Shown in pieces: positions 51,972 to 63,126 of a stretch of DNA of 64,000 nucleotides. Position numbers and translations under genes: made by a program. Each line of letters opens with the position of its first letter. Positions within the stretch are counted from its first letter, which is position 1. The notes beneath the pieces are model-generated. The model had not been told where the DNA came from, searched no databases, and saw nothing but the letters and a program-made list of their open reading frames with translations. The stretch is taken from positions 1,674,001 through 1,738,000 of the forward strand of contig NZ_JANHDH010000001.1 of assembly GCF_026616195.1 (NCBI RefSeq), in the 5' to 3' direction. This DNA comes from Haloarchaeobius amylolyticus (lineage in GTDB: Archaea > Halobacteriota > Halobacteria > Halobacteriales > Natrialbaceae).

Positions 51972-52157
51972 CGCACCACCCACGAGCACGAGCGCCCGCG
52001 GTGGCCAGCGACGGCGACACCGTCGCGGCAGCGACATCGTCGGCGCCCAGATACTCCACGTCGGTGAGGCGTCTCGATAGCCCAAGAAAACCATTTTCGC
52101 GGCCGTGGTGTATGCTAGCTCGAATCGTTCGCCCGAACGACCCGCCACACCACAGCC

Positions 52158-52472
52158 ATGTCAGTCATCGCCCGATTCGAGATACTGCCCGTCGGAGAAC
52201 AGCACATGTCCGAGTCCATCGCCCGCGCGCTCGACGCGCTGGACGACCTCGGCGTCACCTACGAGACGACCGCGATGGACACCATCGTCGAGGCCGAGAC
52301 CGCGGCCGAGGCCTTCGCCGCCGTCCAGGCCGCCCACGAGGCGGCCGGCGACGGCCGCATCGTCACCTCGTTCGAGCTCGACGACGACCCGGAACGCGAA
52401 CTGCACGCCGCCGACCGCGTCTCGGCTGTCGAGAAGGCACGCGAGCACTCCGCGGACGCGGCGAAGCCGTAA
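52158..52472 (+). CDS. MTH1187-type thiamine-binding protein
   Basis: A 104-residue protein of the MTH1187/YkoF-like family (MSVIARFEILPVGEQHMSE...). Members form ferredoxin-like beta-alpha barrels as dimers or tetramers and bind thiamine or its parts. The TYETTAMDTIVEAET and TSFELDDDPERE segments match the two strand-helix units. Followed by the multi-hairpin region before the convergent thermosome gene. Confidence 0.85.
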   Translation: MSVIARFEILPVGEQHMSESIARALDALDDLGVTYETTAMDTIVEAETAAEAFAAVQAAHEAAGDGRIVTSFELDDDPERELHAADRVSAVEKAREHSADAAKP

Positions 52473-52562
52473 GGGGAACGAAGAGCAGGAGCTGTGCGAC
52501 CTGCGCAGCAGAAAACGGTTCTTCGACCGAATACGGCTTCGGGAGCGGTTCGGGGGGTGAAG

Positions 52563-52715
52563 TTATGGAAGTTCTTCTACGCCGAACTTCACATAGCCTT
52601 GGCCGAGGAAACCTCGGCCGTGCGATGAGATTTCTCGTTCCTCGAAATCTACATCGGCTTCGTCAGACTCCGTCTGACGGCCTATGAAAATCGGTCTTCG
52701 CCCGATTTTACATAG
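52563..52715. repeat. array of five regularly spaced hairpins
   Basis: Five inverted repeats with centres about 29-31 bases apart. Hairpins 1, 3 and 5 (52563-52596, 52623-52656, 52682-52715) share one design: a 5-bp outer stem (such as CTATG with CATAG), one unpaired A on the 3' side, a 7-8-bp inner stem and a 7-9-base loop. Their stem sequences differ but keep pairing. Hairpins 2 and 4 (52601-52619, 52661-52679) are perfect 8-bp stems (GGCCGAGG; CGTCAGAC) with 3-base loops. Hairpin 5 includes the thermosome stop codon. The array fills the gap between two convergent genes and may end transcription from both sides. Confidence 0.8.
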
Positions 52716-54357
52716 CGCCGCCCATGCCGCCCATACCGCCCATGCCGCCAGCACCGCCGGGGCCACCTTCGTCGTCGCCCTTGTCGGTGCTCAGGTCACC
52801 GGCGGAGATGATGTCGTCGATCTTGAGGACGAGGTTCGCGGCCTCGGTGGCAGACGTGTACGCCTGCTCCTTGGAGTGGGCCGGCTCGACGACGCCAGCG
52901 TCGAAGGTGTCCTCGATCTGGCCGGAGAAGACGTTCAGACCGGCGCGCTTGTTGCCGCTCTCGTGCTCGGAGCGGAGGTTGACGAGGATGTCGATGGAGT
53001 CGAGACCGGCGTTCTCGGCGAGGACGCGCGGCACGAGTTCCAGCGAGTCGGCGAACGCCTCGACGGCGAGCTGCTCGCGACCCTCGACGGAGTCGGCGTA
53101 GTCGCGGAGGCGCGAGGCGACCTCGACCTCGATGGCGCCGCCACCGGCGACGACGCGGCCGTCGGAGACGGTCTGGGCGACGACGTCGAGGGCGTCGGTG
53201 ACGCCGCGCTCGAGCTCGTCGACGACGTGGTCGGTGGAGCCACGGAGGGTGAGCGTGACGCCGTGGGCGTTCTCGGCACCCTCGACGTAGAACAGCTCGT
53301 CCTCGGCGTCGCGGCTGATGGAGCCAGCGCCGAGGTCGGAGGCGTCGAAGTCGTCGAGGTCGGAGACGACGGACGCGCCGAGGATCTCACGCAGGAACCG
53401 GACGTCGGACTTCTTCACGCGGCGGACGGCGAGGATGCCCTCCTTCGCGAGGTAGTGCTGGGCGAGGTCGTCGATGCCCTTCTGGCAGAAGACGACGTCG
53501 GCACCGGAGTCGACGATGGACTGGACCTTGTCCTTGAGCTGCTTCTCCTCCTGGTCGAGGAACTGCTGGAGCTGGCTCGGGTCGGTGACGTTGACCTCGG
53601 TGTCGACGTTGGCCTCCTCGACCTCGATGGCCTCGTTGAGGAGGAGGATCTTCGCGTCGTCGACCGACTTCGGCATGTCGTCGTGGACCGGGTCCTTGTC
53701 GATGACCGCGCCCTTCAGGAGCTCGGAGGCGGAGGCGGGCTGGCCGGTCTGGGTCTCGATCTTGAGGTACTCCATGTCGACCTGCCCCTCGACGGTGACG
53801 GACTGGACGGCCTCGACGATGAGCTCTGCGAGGTGCTCCTTGTCGAGTTCGGCGCCCTTGCCCGTCATGGAGGTCTCGGCGACCTTGCGCAGGAGCTCCT
53901 CGTCGTCGGCGTCGACGTTCTCCGCGATGTCGTCGACCTCTTCGCGAGCCTGCTTGCTCGCGAGGTGGAAGCCCTTGATGATGGCGCTCGGGTGGATGTC
54001 CTGCTCGAGGAGGTCCTCGGCGTTCTTCAGGAGTTCGCCCGCGATGGCGACGGCGGTCGTCGTGCCGTCACCGGCCTCGTCCTCCTGCGTCTCGGCGACC
54101 TCGATGATCATCTCGGCCGTCGGGTTGTCGATGTCCATCTCCTTCAGGATGGTTACGCCGTCGTTCGTGATGGTGACGTCACCCATCGAGTCGACGAGCA
54201 TCTTGTCCATCCCTTTCGGGCCGAGTGTGGAACGCACGGCCTCGGCGACTGCGCGAGCCGCCTGGATGTTGTACTCCTGCGCGTCACGGTCCTTGACGCG
54301 CTGGGACTCCTCGGACATCACGATCATCGGCTGACCTTGCTGCATTCGCTGGCTCAT
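52708..54357 (-). CDS. thermosome (group II chaperonin) subunit
   Basis: A 549-residue chaperonin subunit of the Cct1/Cct2 type that folds proteins in a double-ring complex. Visible motifs: [29 protein letters not shown], the catalytic [28 protein letters not shown], and the Gly-Met-rich tail ([13 protein letters not shown]). The ATG at 54357 ([11 protein letters not shown]) is the conserved haloarchaeal start, and a TATA box about 31 bases upstream would place the transcript start just before it; an ATG at 54372 is less likely. The stop codon lies inside hairpin 5 of the downstream array. Confidence 0.96.
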
Positions 54358-54383
54358 GTACAGACGAGGCATTGATTGTGCTT

Positions 54384-60636: not shown

Positions 60637-63126
60637 TCACTCTATCTCGGAGCGTGGCGCGAACTCGAACCGTGCACCGCCCTCCTCGCTCTCCTCGACC
60701 GACACCTCCCAGTCGTGGGCGGCAGCGATGCTCTCGACGATACTGAGCCCGAAGCCGGTGCCGTCTCCGGTCGTCGAGTACCCGTGCTCGAAGACGCAGT
60801 CTCGCTCTTCGGGCGGGATGCCGGGGCCGTCGTCCGCGACGAAGAACAGGCCGTCTTCGACCCCGACGCGGATGGTCACCCCGGACCCACCGTCTTCGAC
60901 GCTGTCGCCGGGATTCTCTGCTGTCTGCTCGCTCGTCGAGCCGTGCTCGACGCTGTTGCGGAACAGGTTCTCGAACAGCGTGCGCAGTCGCTCCGGGTCG
61001 CACTCCAGCGTCACGTCGTCCGCCTCGACGACGAGGGTCGCGTCCGGGGCGTCGATGGACTGCCACGCGTCCTCGGCGACCGCGGCGAGTTCGACCGTCT
61101 GGTACTCGCTGACCATCTCCCCTTCGCGGGCCAGCGTCAGCAGCGACGACACCAGGTCGTCGATGCGGTCGAGGGCCCGGGCGATGCGGTCGTGGTTCTC
61201 CGCGGCCCCGGGAGCGTCCTCCCTCGCGAGTTCGAGACTCGTCTTCGCGACGCCGAGGGGGTTCCGCAGGTCGTGGCTGAGCACGCTCGCGAACCGGTCC
61301 AGCCGTTCGACGTTGCGTTCGAGTTCGCGCTCGCGTTCGACGCGTTCGAGCAGTCCCGCGGCCAGTCGGATGTAGAGGTCCGTGAGCTTGAGCTCGCGTT
61401 CCGAGGGCCGGTGGGGGTTCCTGAAGTGCGTCGACAGCATCCCGAGGAGGGTGCCGGAGCTGTCGACTATCGGGGTCGACTGGACGGCGCGATACGGGAC
61501 GCTGGCGGCGACCTCGCGGTGCGGGCGGAACGCCTCGTCGGCCATGACGTCTTCGACGACGACGCGTTCGCCCCCTCGCAGGGCCCGTCCACAGATGGAC
61601 GTGTCGGACGTCTGCACGACCGCGAAGTGGTCGAGGAACTCCTGCGGGAAGCCGCGCTGGGCGGCTATCGTCAGCGTCTGGTGCGTGGCGTCGTAGAGCT
61701 GGACGTTCCCGTAGTCCGCGTTCTGGAGTGCGATGGTCGCGTCGAGGATCTCCTCCAGCATCTCCTGGACGTCGTCCGTCTCGACGAGTCGCATCGTCAA
61801 CTCGTGCAGTCGCGTCATCGCCGACAGTTCGGTCGCCAGCTGGTCCCGGAGCGCCCGGTTCTCGGCCTCGGTCTGTTTCCGGTCGGTGACGTCCTCGAAG
61901 AGGATCGCGACCTTGTGCTCGTCGGGGTCACCGACCCGGACCGCGTAGACGTCGAACCAGCGCTCGTCGAGGTACCTCGCCTGTCTCGTGAACCGCCGCG
62001 ACTTCCCGGTCAGGGCCACCTCGCCGTAGATCTCGAACCAGAACTCCTCGTGCAGTGGTTCGAGTTCCCGCATGCGCTTCCCCTCGACGTCGACGAGCCC
62101 GGACTCCTCCTCGAACGCCGGGTTCGTCAGGAGGAAGCGGTAGTCCACCGGTTCCTCGTGCTCGTCGAACAGCATCTCGACGATGCAGTAGCCCTGCTCG
62201 ATCGACTGGAAGAGCGTGCGATAGCGCTCCTCGCTCTCCCGGAGGCGGTCGTAGGCGTACTCCTTCGCCCGGTAGAGCTCCCGGCCCCGGAACGCGATGT
62301 TCCCGGGGCTGTACTTCTCCTCGAGCCCGAAGCGTTCGAGCAGGTCCGACCCCTCCTCGGACCGGACGTAGGACACGACCGCGGTGACGTCCTCGAACCG
62401 GAGGACGATGTAGTCGATGTCCCCGCTCGGCCCGAACAGGGGCGTACAGAGCAGACACCACCAGCGCTCGGTCGCCTCGTCGTCGGTGAACTCGTTCGGC
62501 GGGAGCCGGATGCGCATCGCCGGCAGCACGTCGGCCTGCCGGCTGGTCGTCACCCGGTCGAGCGACGCCAGGATGCGGTGGAGGTTCTCCGGGTCGCCCA
62601 CCTCGAGTGCGGCGTCGATGACCACCGGGAGCGACCGCCTGACGACGTGGTCGCGCTCGGCCGCGGTCGCCTCCAGGTACGCATCGCTCGCCTCGACGAC
62701 CTCGTAGTCGTCGGGTTCGACGACCTCGTAGTCGTCGGGTTCGACGACCTCGTAGTCGTCGGGTTCGACGACCTCGTAGTCGTCGGGTTCGACGACCTCG
62801 TAGTCGTCGGGTTCGACGACCAGCGCGAGTTCGGGCCCGGTCTCGAACAGCTGGCGGAACATCGAGATGTCGAGTCGCGGTGCCGCGACGGAATCCGTCG
62901 GCTGGCGGTGCCGCCCCGGTGGCCGCCACCAGAGCTGGTCCCCCGACTCGACCGTCTTCGTCTGTAGTTCGCCCGCTTCGACCAGGTCGGCGAGCACGTC
63001 GAAGAGCGCCGGCTCTGCACAGTCCAGCTCGCTCGAAAGTTCCCCGACCGAGACCGGGGTCCCTGGTGGGTCGAGGCTGTCGAAGACTGTCAGTACTGAA
63101 GCCCGCGACAGGACGGGGGAACTCAT
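60637..63126 (-). CDS. hybrid-sensor histidine kinase: winged helix-PAS-PAS-GAF-HisKA-HATPase
   Basis: An 829-residue sensor kinase. Residues 10-75 resemble a winged helix (SVGELSSELDCAEPALFDVL). A first PAS domain (about 90-250) contains the five-fold repeat VVEPDDYE; a second PAS (about 300-420) ends DVTDRKQTE; a GAF domain spans about 440-600. The dimerisation helix has FASVLSHDLRNPLG with the phosphoacceptor His, and the ATPase has LFENLFRNSVEH, DDGPGIPPEE and GTGFGLSIV. It should autophosphorylate and signal to an unlinked response regulator. No membrane helix is evident, so it probably senses a cytoplasmic signal. Confidence 0.9.
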   Translation of the reverse strand: MSSPVLSRASVLTVFDSLDPPGTPVSVGELSSELDCAEPALFDVLADLVEAGELQTKTVESGDQLWWRPPGRHRQPTDSVAAPRLDISMFRQLFETGPELALVVEPDDYEVVEPDDYEVVEPDDYEVVEPDDYEVVEPDDYEVVEASDAYLEATAAERDHVVRRSLPVVIDAALEVGDPENLHRILASLDRVTTSRQADVLPAMRIRLPPNEFTDDEATERWWCLLCTPLFGPSGDIDYIVLRFEDVTAVVSYVRSEEGSDLLERFGLEEKYSPGNIAFRGRELYRAKEYAYDRLRESEERYRTLFQSIEQGYCIVEMLFDEHEEPVDYRFLLTNPAFEEESGLVDVEGKRMRELEPLHEEFWFEIYGEVALTGKSRRFTRQARYLDERWFDVYAVRVGDPDEHKVAILFEDVTDRKQTEAENRALRDQLATELSAMTRLHELTMRLVETDDVQEMLEEILDATIALQNADYGNVQLYDATHQTLTIAAQRGFPQEFLDHFAVVQTSDTSICGRALRGGERVVVEDVMADEAFRPHREVAASVPYRAVQSTPIVDSSGTLLGMLSTHFRNPHRPSERELKLTDLYIRLAAGLLERVERERELERNVERLDRFASVLSHDLRNPLGVAKTSLELAREDAPGAAENHDRIARALDRIDDLVSSLLTLAREGEMVSEYQTVELAAVAEDAWQSIDAPDATLVVEADDVTLECDPERLRTLFENLFRNSVEHGSTSEQTAENPGDSVEDGGSGVTIRVGVEDGLFFVADDGPGIPPEERDCVFEHGYSTTGDGTGFGLSIVESIAAAHDWEVSVEESEEGGARFEFAPRSEIE
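62701..62820 (-). repeat. coding minisatellite: five identical 24-base units
   Basis: Five perfect head-to-tail copies of a 24-base unit encoding VVEPDDYE, located where the first strand of the PAS domain begins (ALVVEPDDYEVVEASDAYLE). The flanking VVEASDAY shows that the unit arose by duplicating one strand of the domain. Copy number is a multiple of 3, so changes keep the frame. Identity of the copies suggests recent or ongoing slippage. Confidence 0.95.

Follow-up and report, generated by a model that had tools for sequence, protein, structure and literature searches.

In-frame palindromic elements are best known from Rickettsia. The bacterial RPEs are elements of about 150 bp, described as short palindromes that lie in frame within unrelated conserved genes (PMC10969869, PMC3733652). 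The portions of these two papers that deal with CGTC-type elements, some RPEs included, assign them no dedicated transposase. REP hairpins with a GTAG or CGTC tag are found mostly downstream of genes, some of them being intragenic and some clustered, and the phyla named for them in the relevant part of the account are all bacterial (PMC3733652). From haloarchaea, the IS605-related PATEs of Haloquadratum have been reported; in the sections of PMC3119063 devoted to them they have no inverted terminal repeats, carry palindromes near their ends, are too short for a transposase gene, and produce no target duplication. A 52-bp form consisting of the ends only is also mentioned there. Finally, where a gene has stable hairpins at its 3′ end, archaeal terminators come to mind: in Haloferax volcanii, hairpins were reported upstream of 503 termination sites, according to the part of PMC7237163 that treats them.

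Here we describe an array of five hairpins at the 3′ end of a thermosome gene. Very probably, the array is made up of a small insertion element of Halobacteria, a double hairpin, about 2.5 copies of which are stacked after successive insertion at the thermosome stop. It is best read as a REP/RPE-like palindromic insertion element, not as a thermosome-specific terminator, and on this best reading the observation leads beyond what the first-pass annotation of the locus supposed, to a widespread haloarchaeal palindromic element behind the array. In the literature searched, as judged by titles, the openings of abstracts and some passages, no such haloarchaeal element or target preference was found.

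The hairpin array and thermosome ends in related genomes

The window, i.e. the whole stretch of 64,000 nucleotides analysed here, comes from a haloarchaeal genome of 4.6 Mb (G000), taken to belong to Haloarchaeobius, a genus that NCBI places in the Halorubellaceae. It contains a thermosome gene convergent with an MTH1187-like gene, and the five hairpins lie between the two stops. The features are:

52158-52472, plus strand: weak match to the MTH1187 family (39.8 bits; family cut-off 54.7)
52563-52596: unit 1, a half copy (module C, minus strand), presumably the oldest, with the displaced Met-stop ATGTGA (TGA at 52589-52591)
52601-52619: unit 2, hairpin 2 of module B
52623-52656, minus strand: unit 3, hairpin 1 of module B, with the displaced Met-stop ATGTAG (TAG at 52649-52651)
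52661-52679: unit 4, hairpin 2 of module A, CGTCAGAC-n3-GTCTGACG
52682-52715, minus strand: unit 5, hairpin 1 of module A, containing the live thermosome stop TAA
52597-52656, minus strand: module B, composed of unit 3, unit 2 and AAGGC
52656-52716, minus strand: module A, composed of unit 5, unit 4 and AAGCC, presumably the youngest copy
52708-54375, minus strand: thermosome (group II chaperonin) subunit (NCBIfam TIGR02339, E 6.4e-225)
60934-60952, minus strand: lone hairpin-1-type palindrome at the N-box of a histidine kinase (HATPase_c/HisKA), a weak, partial match to model R2 described below (E 0.014)

The five inverted repeats noticed in the first-pass annotation were all recovered at the positions and with the architecture given there, and unit 5 does contain the thermosome TAA (52708-52710, minus strand). 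In the sense of the thermosome gene, the array reads as 2.5 copies of a module of about 60 nt, in which hairpin 1 is followed by hairpin 2 and then by AAGC or AAGGC. Hairpin 1 consists of CnATG, an unpaired T, a stem of 7-8 bp closing a loop of 7-9 nt, and CATnG, and hairpin 2 is a stem of 8 bp with a 3-nt loop. In module A, unit 5 has the outer arms CTATG/CATAG, the unpaired T, an inner stem of 8 bp and a 7-nt loop, and unit 4 has 8 bp and a 3-nt loop. Inner stem and loop together measure 23 nt in each of units 1, 3 and 5; the lowest outer pair of unit 1 is U-G on the plus strand and C-A on the minus strand. The "single bulged A" of the earlier description is indeed an unpaired base, but on the minus strand, which is that of the thermosome, it is the T of a stop codon. 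Hairpin 1 starts with a Met codon followed by a stop, namely ATGTAA (live), ATGTAG or ATGTGA, and the two downstream Met-stops in units 3 and 1 look like former gene ends.

An additional weak stem had been suggested at 52491-52509; it is present as sequence but falls outside the repeated module. A 10-bp perfect inverted repeat, CGAAGCCGTA/TACGGCTTCG, occupies positions 52462-52471 and 52532-52541 of the window, starting at the end of the convergent MTH1187-like gene. Rfam gave 4 matches in 52000-53200, none of them above the gathering score and none inside the array. The exact unit 4 pattern, CGTCAGR-n5-YCTGACG, occurs elsewhere in the genome at G000:C2:543054 only.

Comparison with a congener (G002) may provide some clues regarding the history of the array. 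Its thermosome gene stops at the TAG of unit 3, and units 5 and 4 are absent. The 92 nt of units 3-2-1 are identical in the two genomes, as compared with thermosome genes that are 94.6% identical across 1197 nt (88.5% when the 399 third codon positions are taken alone), and beyond unit 1 there is no match (39% identity in a global alignment of 95 versus 150 nt). These sequences indicate that the array has grown through insertion at the thermosome stop codon. In Haloarchaeobius sp. FL176 (G004), units 3 and 2 are found at another thermosome locus, where they are succeeded by a different module and then by GCCGATGTAAGC. One imperfect hairpin of the odd type was found at the thermosome locus of G001, and no such hairpin was seen at the loci inspected in G003 and G005.

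Outside the genus, the comparison was extended to thermosome ends of Halorubrum, on the basis that G028 is inferred to belong to that genus. A clean 59-nt insertion, GGCGC^GATGTAAG (the flank also given as GATGTAAGCGAGG), distinguishes L181 from L174, and the module is present or absent between close species. Thirty Halorubrum thermosome ends were chosen via their coding sequence, and five of them exceed 50 bits with R1, a model built from four thermosome-end modules including window module A (93.9 bits, the copy itself being one of the four). The module is intact in three (L167, L181, L190); in L176 the outer 5′ arm is replaced and in L183 hairpin 1 is broken or decayed. Two more ends, L187 and L188, match R1 at the thermosome stop with 26-28 bits. 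A stretch of 35 nt is identical between G004 and Halorubrum copies, and homologous recombination in which thermosome 3′ ends were exchanged may account for this.

Other hairpins are found at such ends as well. In L176, the 3′ end of the thermosome gene of G060, the module's first bases are replaced by another hairpin element, so different elements nest at one stop codon. Hairpins of another type (CGAnCGG...CCGyGAG, interrupted by a small internal loop) are located downstream of the thermosome stops in L023, L045, L046 and L050; at thermosome 3′ ends they sometimes adjoin the first type or sit within it.

A general 45-nt element in gene ends and coding regions

Matches to R1 are present in 70 of the 292 haloarchaeal genomes sampled. 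The 30 R1 loci listed comprise 28 thermosome 3′ ends, with the stop inside the match in 25, and two DnaK 3′ ends (L090, L091). Twenty weaker matches were read: six are at DnaK ends, four at thermosome ends and ten elsewhere, and most of these ten have the compact form GTTG-N6-n3-N6′-CAGCC-CG-N6-n3-N6′-CG-AnGCC. An exact-frame pattern search yielded 27 matches, six of which were judged real by eye, and it was replaced by a second model, R2, whose sources were seven compact copies, three copies from the pattern search and the copy on G000:C2. In the R2 alignment (A3), 97.0% of cells are paired and 15 of the 18 pairs are changed on both sides.

R2 matches occur in 246 of 292 Halobacteria genomes. 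In a sample of the phylum they occur in 43 of 294 genomes, and all 43 belong to the window's order; the negatives are at least 10 members of that order and 241 other genomes, 231 of which may belong to any order. Copy numbers are low, at least 1 to 20 per positive genome, and represent lower bounds, 20 candidates per genome having been scored.

Hairpin 2 of the window with its flanks (AGGC-CGTCAGAC-GGA-GTCTGACG-AAGCC) matches R2 with an E-value of 8.2e-8, most of the model's hairpin 1 being skipped. Hairpin 1 of the thermosome copies is AT-rich, about 34 nt long and unlike hairpin 1 of the general element in sequence, and in thermosome and DnaK copies alike it is longer than in the 45-nt form. 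Based on hairpin 2, its flanks and the common layout, the thermosome/DnaK copies and the 45-nt form probably constitute one family, the former being a subtype.

The surroundings of the element were studied at 49 loci, of which 29 are among the best R2 matches (L160 was dropped as an incomplete locus) and 20 were hand-picked, some for being tandem. At 25 of them, the flanks are open and coding as supported by codon usage and the element is free of stops; phase and strand are shared by 23 of the 25. Such context counts are not a random sample because R1 and R2 were built from copies picked by eye, partly coding ones. The other 24 loci failed the coding-flank test, 12 of them being of the TnpB type. 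All ten element-bearing ORFs tested against Pfam turned out to be known enzymes or kinases: NAD-dependent DNA ligase (LigA), TsaD, PurL, a carboxyltransferase, a P-type ATPase, a histidine kinase, a class I tRNA synthetase, a pyridine-nucleotide-disulphide reductase (merA), TrpA and a chorismate-binding enzyme. Further hosts are PurC, ThiI, an ABC ATPase and a beta-lactamase-fold protein. The peptide coded by the element is close to VDExSSARQTxSDDV. In L140 and L157, from two genera, homologous ABC transporters bear the element at one and the same position, shortly after Walker A, which may be either one old insertion or a repeated target.

In histidine kinases, the element is located at the N-box, often as 45-nt tandem copies. 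L225-L228, L233, L236 and L244 have in-frame 45-nt inserts directly at the N-box, several in tandem, that read close to VEHGSTGxQTxSGDA; the native N-box sequence makes up one arm of hairpin 1. The lone palindrome at 60934-60952 of the window lies where the general element is located in histidine kinases of other genomes, and it may be a remnant of the element or just the N-box sequence of the gene itself.

Twelve of the 49 loci have the flanks of L112, TGCAA before and GGAAGC after the element. The host of L112 is a TnpB-type OrfB_IS605 protein by Pfam, and the one further ORF tested, at L147, had no Pfam match. From their flanks, the twelve loci are read as probable TnpB 3′ ends. The contig G050:C3 contains eight equal-scoring double-hairpin copies; the four that were read (L229-L232) are identical and apparently also belong to the 3′ ends of TnpB genes. 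It is possible that IS605-type transposons carry the element, perhaps within the TnpB guide-RNA region.

A filled site and its empty counterparts are seen in merA. On plasmid pCBA1232-02 of Halorubrum trapanicum (NZ_AP017571.1), this gene has exactly 45 bp more than on plasmids of Natrinema pellirubrum, Halorubrum sp. CBA1229, Haloplanus rallus, Haloarcula marismortui, Halobacterium sp. BOL4-2 and Natronomonas gomsonensis, which are 87-94% identical around the insertion (twelve records, one filled; six of the eleven others were aligned). The insertion is flanked by GACGTTGAC and GACGTCGAC, a 9-bp near-duplication, one copy of which is present at the empty site. The filled record was the only one obtained with an element peptide from the plasmid collection; its E-value of 0.7 is not significant alone, and it was confirmed through a 100% match to merA. 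A search of the phage collection for one element peptide was negative. In the P-type ATPase, the insert is present in G232 and G322 and absent from all ten other genomes aligned (a set that leaves out the three further loci L221-L223). The closest empty allele is shorter by 63 nt and the other nine have longer gaps, so this linker is variable. The histidine-kinase copy on G000:C2, when compared with G002, showed no clean empty site.

The near-duplication is also visible across loci. At 24 sites, identity at a lag of 45 reaches 58% over positions -6 to +10, as against 28-29% outside; the orthologous duplicate L154 and L234 (other length) are excluded from this set, in which L140 and L157 count as the same place in homologous genes. 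Control lags of 44 and 46 gave 17-19%, and lags of 42 and 48 gave 45%, which we put down to codon periodicity. The direct repeats at element sites are imperfect, and the 12 loci of the TnpB type have no lag-45 repeat (32% versus 32% and 23%).

Possible role in chaperone mRNA and probable origin of the array

Could the array instead be a thermosome 3′-UTR structure, selected as a terminator or mRNA stabiliser in a highly expressed heat-shock gene? This possibility, which is compatible with the insertion of an element, is to be taken seriously but falls somewhat short of an even chance. Alignment A4 of thermosome-linked copies is limited to matches with an E-value of 1e-6 or better, which were taken from 35 chosen sources and amount to 33 distinct rows. 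Of its 675 pair cells, 94.4% are standard pairs, both partners have changed in 16 of the 21 pairs, and cells changed on both sides number 109 versus 29.6 in shuffles; these figures are biased upward because the rows were found and aligned with a structure model. With this reservation about model-selected rows, the compensatory change between repeats proposed in the first-pass annotation is supported at thermosome-linked copies, and so is its structured 3′ region as far as retained pairing goes. The retained pairing fits selection, and the 92 nt shared identically by G000 and G002, above the level of third codon positions, point the same way. Moreover, the part of PMC7237163 concerned with it reports that 59% of reporter transcripts in Haloferax volcanii were terminated by a hairpin taken from a coding region.

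Several observations speak against this explanation. First, 25 of the 30 Halorubrum thermosome ends stay below 50 bits with R1, although in L187 and L188 a match at the stop is preserved and several of the others possess some hairpin of their own. Second, the copy in L183 has decayed. Third, neither strand showed a terminator-like site when 52400-52900 was scanned, and elements of this kind are also found within unrelated ORFs; the elaborate two-way terminator supposed earlier has to be given up on both counts. The idea of an RNA element tied to the chaperonin survives as an association with chaperone genes, at thermosome and DnaK 3′ ends, but not as something confined to the thermosome: a thermosome-only RNA element was rejected in view of the weaker matches, which are found at the ends of DnaK genes as well as within conserved enzymes and a TnpB gene. 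In the sense of the thermosome gene, this region has just two occurrences of T4, one in the unit 5 stem (52690) and the other at 52515, the first beyond the array. Given this position and the lack of a terminator-like site in or near the array, the copies at chaperone ends are probably transcribed as 3′ UTR, where, judging from the sequences, they may possibly serve in ending or protecting the mRNA.

An improbable alternative is that the array is of local origin, i.e. that it arose by template switching or tandem duplication at the thermosome end with no mobile element, and then spread via gene conversion between thermosome paralogues and recombination between species. The gene's own end (ATGTRR) is repeated in the odd units, more than one thermosome locus bears an array (the window locus in G000 and G004:C30), and 45-nt tandem copies are known from the histidine kinases, all of which would agree with it. 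However, hairpin 2 with its flanks is also present at DnaK ends and inside unrelated genes, and of the 45-bp insert in merA the empty site contains nothing but the 9-bp target. Two other candidates were discarded. Fold-back copying of host sequence (gene end, inverted copy, hairpin, direct copy) is attractive for DnaK and the thermosome, but most of the merA insert is absent from the empty site. Integron-like cassettes with attC sites were suggested by the bulged base and the growth at one end, but the bulge is missing in L077 and L079 and the general copies are inside ORFs.

The stability of the array on both strands, which the first-pass annotation had proposed to check by folding against shuffled sequence, is well above expectation: the minimum free energy of the 181-nt region is -83.2 kcal/mol on the plus strand and -81.5 on the minus strand (z -6.70 and -5.98). 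Perfect hairpins are common in this GC-rich genome, with 109 of 7-nt arms in the window by the same count, and the array is not the densest spot, as a 24-bp tandem repeat at 62694 scores 10 versus 5. This repeat (62694-62823) is present five times, in frame, in a GAF/PAS histidine kinase (VVEPDDYE five times) and forms ten overlapping hairpins. Nevertheless, chance palindromes or a compositional artefact can be dismissed for practical purposes, since none of 200 dinucleotide shuffles folds as well on either strand, 2000 mononucleotide shuffles contain 0.06 perfect hairpins (7-nt arms, loops 3-9) on average and never more than 2, as against five in the array, and related modules occupy orthologous sites in other genomes.

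Returning to successive insertion of a mobile palindrome, the comparisons show that a short double palindrome is inserted at defined sites, repeatedly at one site, with the reading frame or a stop preserved. What speaks against this explanation is the differing sequence of hairpin 1, the low copy numbers, the imperfect direct repeats with none in the TnpB-type group, the variable linker of the P-type ATPase, the lack of a clean empty site for the G000:C2 copy and the 35 nt shared by G004 and Halorubrum. Gene ends and acidic linkers would be tolerated because a reading frame or a stop survives. The mobile form is perhaps a single-stranded hairpin DNA, which may be handled in trans by a transposase. 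The newest copy would lie nearest the gene; each copy at the thermosome end has a Met-stop of its own, with the older stops downstream. At the thermosome end the copies are probably located in the 3′ UTR, where stable hairpins may protect or end the mRNA. More tentatively, haloarchaea may own a family of ultra-short mobile palindromes with a core of 36-50 nt, a 9-bp near-duplication and frames usually left open, which stack in tandem, land repeatedly at the stops of thermosome and DnaK, the two main chaperone genes, bring a fresh stop with each copy and are kept as 3′-UTR structure.

If true, this would represent an archaeal route to protein insertions and new gene 3′ ends, through a family present in most sampled haloarchaeal genomes that occupies ligase, tRNA-modification, purine and signalling genes. 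It would also account for odd 15-residue inserts (near VDExSSARQTxSDDV) and for the tandem N-box inserts of haloarchaeal histidine kinases. The insertion ladder at one gene end offers a setting to ask how a 45-nt element moves without its own transposase.

Comparison with known palindromic elements

The element resembles archaeal terminators in forming stable hairpins at a gene's 3′ end. It differs from them in that the scan of the array revealed no terminator-like site and that the same kind of element is also inside ORFs; the hairpin followed by a T-run of an intrinsic terminator is not seen at the array (52400-52900, both strands). MITEs are characterized by inverted terminal repeats in common with a transposon, whereas the ends of the 45-nt insertion are, by inspection, not inverted copies of each other.

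The resemblance to the RPEs lies in the insertion in frame within unrelated protein genes, which is found here in 25 of 49 loci, in Pfam-identified hosts and in merA. In contrast to RPEs as described in the portions of the literature cited above, the element is only 45-60 nt long and has two separate hairpins, is restricted in our sample to the window's order, and stacks at chaperone gene ends. With REPs it shares hairpins that lie mostly downstream of genes, with intragenic and clustered cases, but it is archaeal. The REP tag is unpaired in the account of PMC3733652, whereas CGTC in our element forms the foot of the hairpin 2 stem, paired with GACG (A3 columns 25-28), and GTAG is absent from the element consensus.

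The PATEs are alike in being haloarchaeal, in lacking room for a transposase gene and in having palindromes near both ends without inverted terminal repeats, an arrangement that inspection also finds here. Unlike the PATEs, for which the description in PMC3119063 gives no target duplication, our element has the 9-bp near-duplication in merA and the lag-45 repeat at 24 sites, with none at the 12 TnpB-type loci. Since the unpaired tag of REPs and the absence of target duplication in PATEs do not apply to it, the element is not assigned to either group. By analogy, it is best read as closest in kind to the bacterial RPEs and REPs and to the haloarchaeal PATEs.
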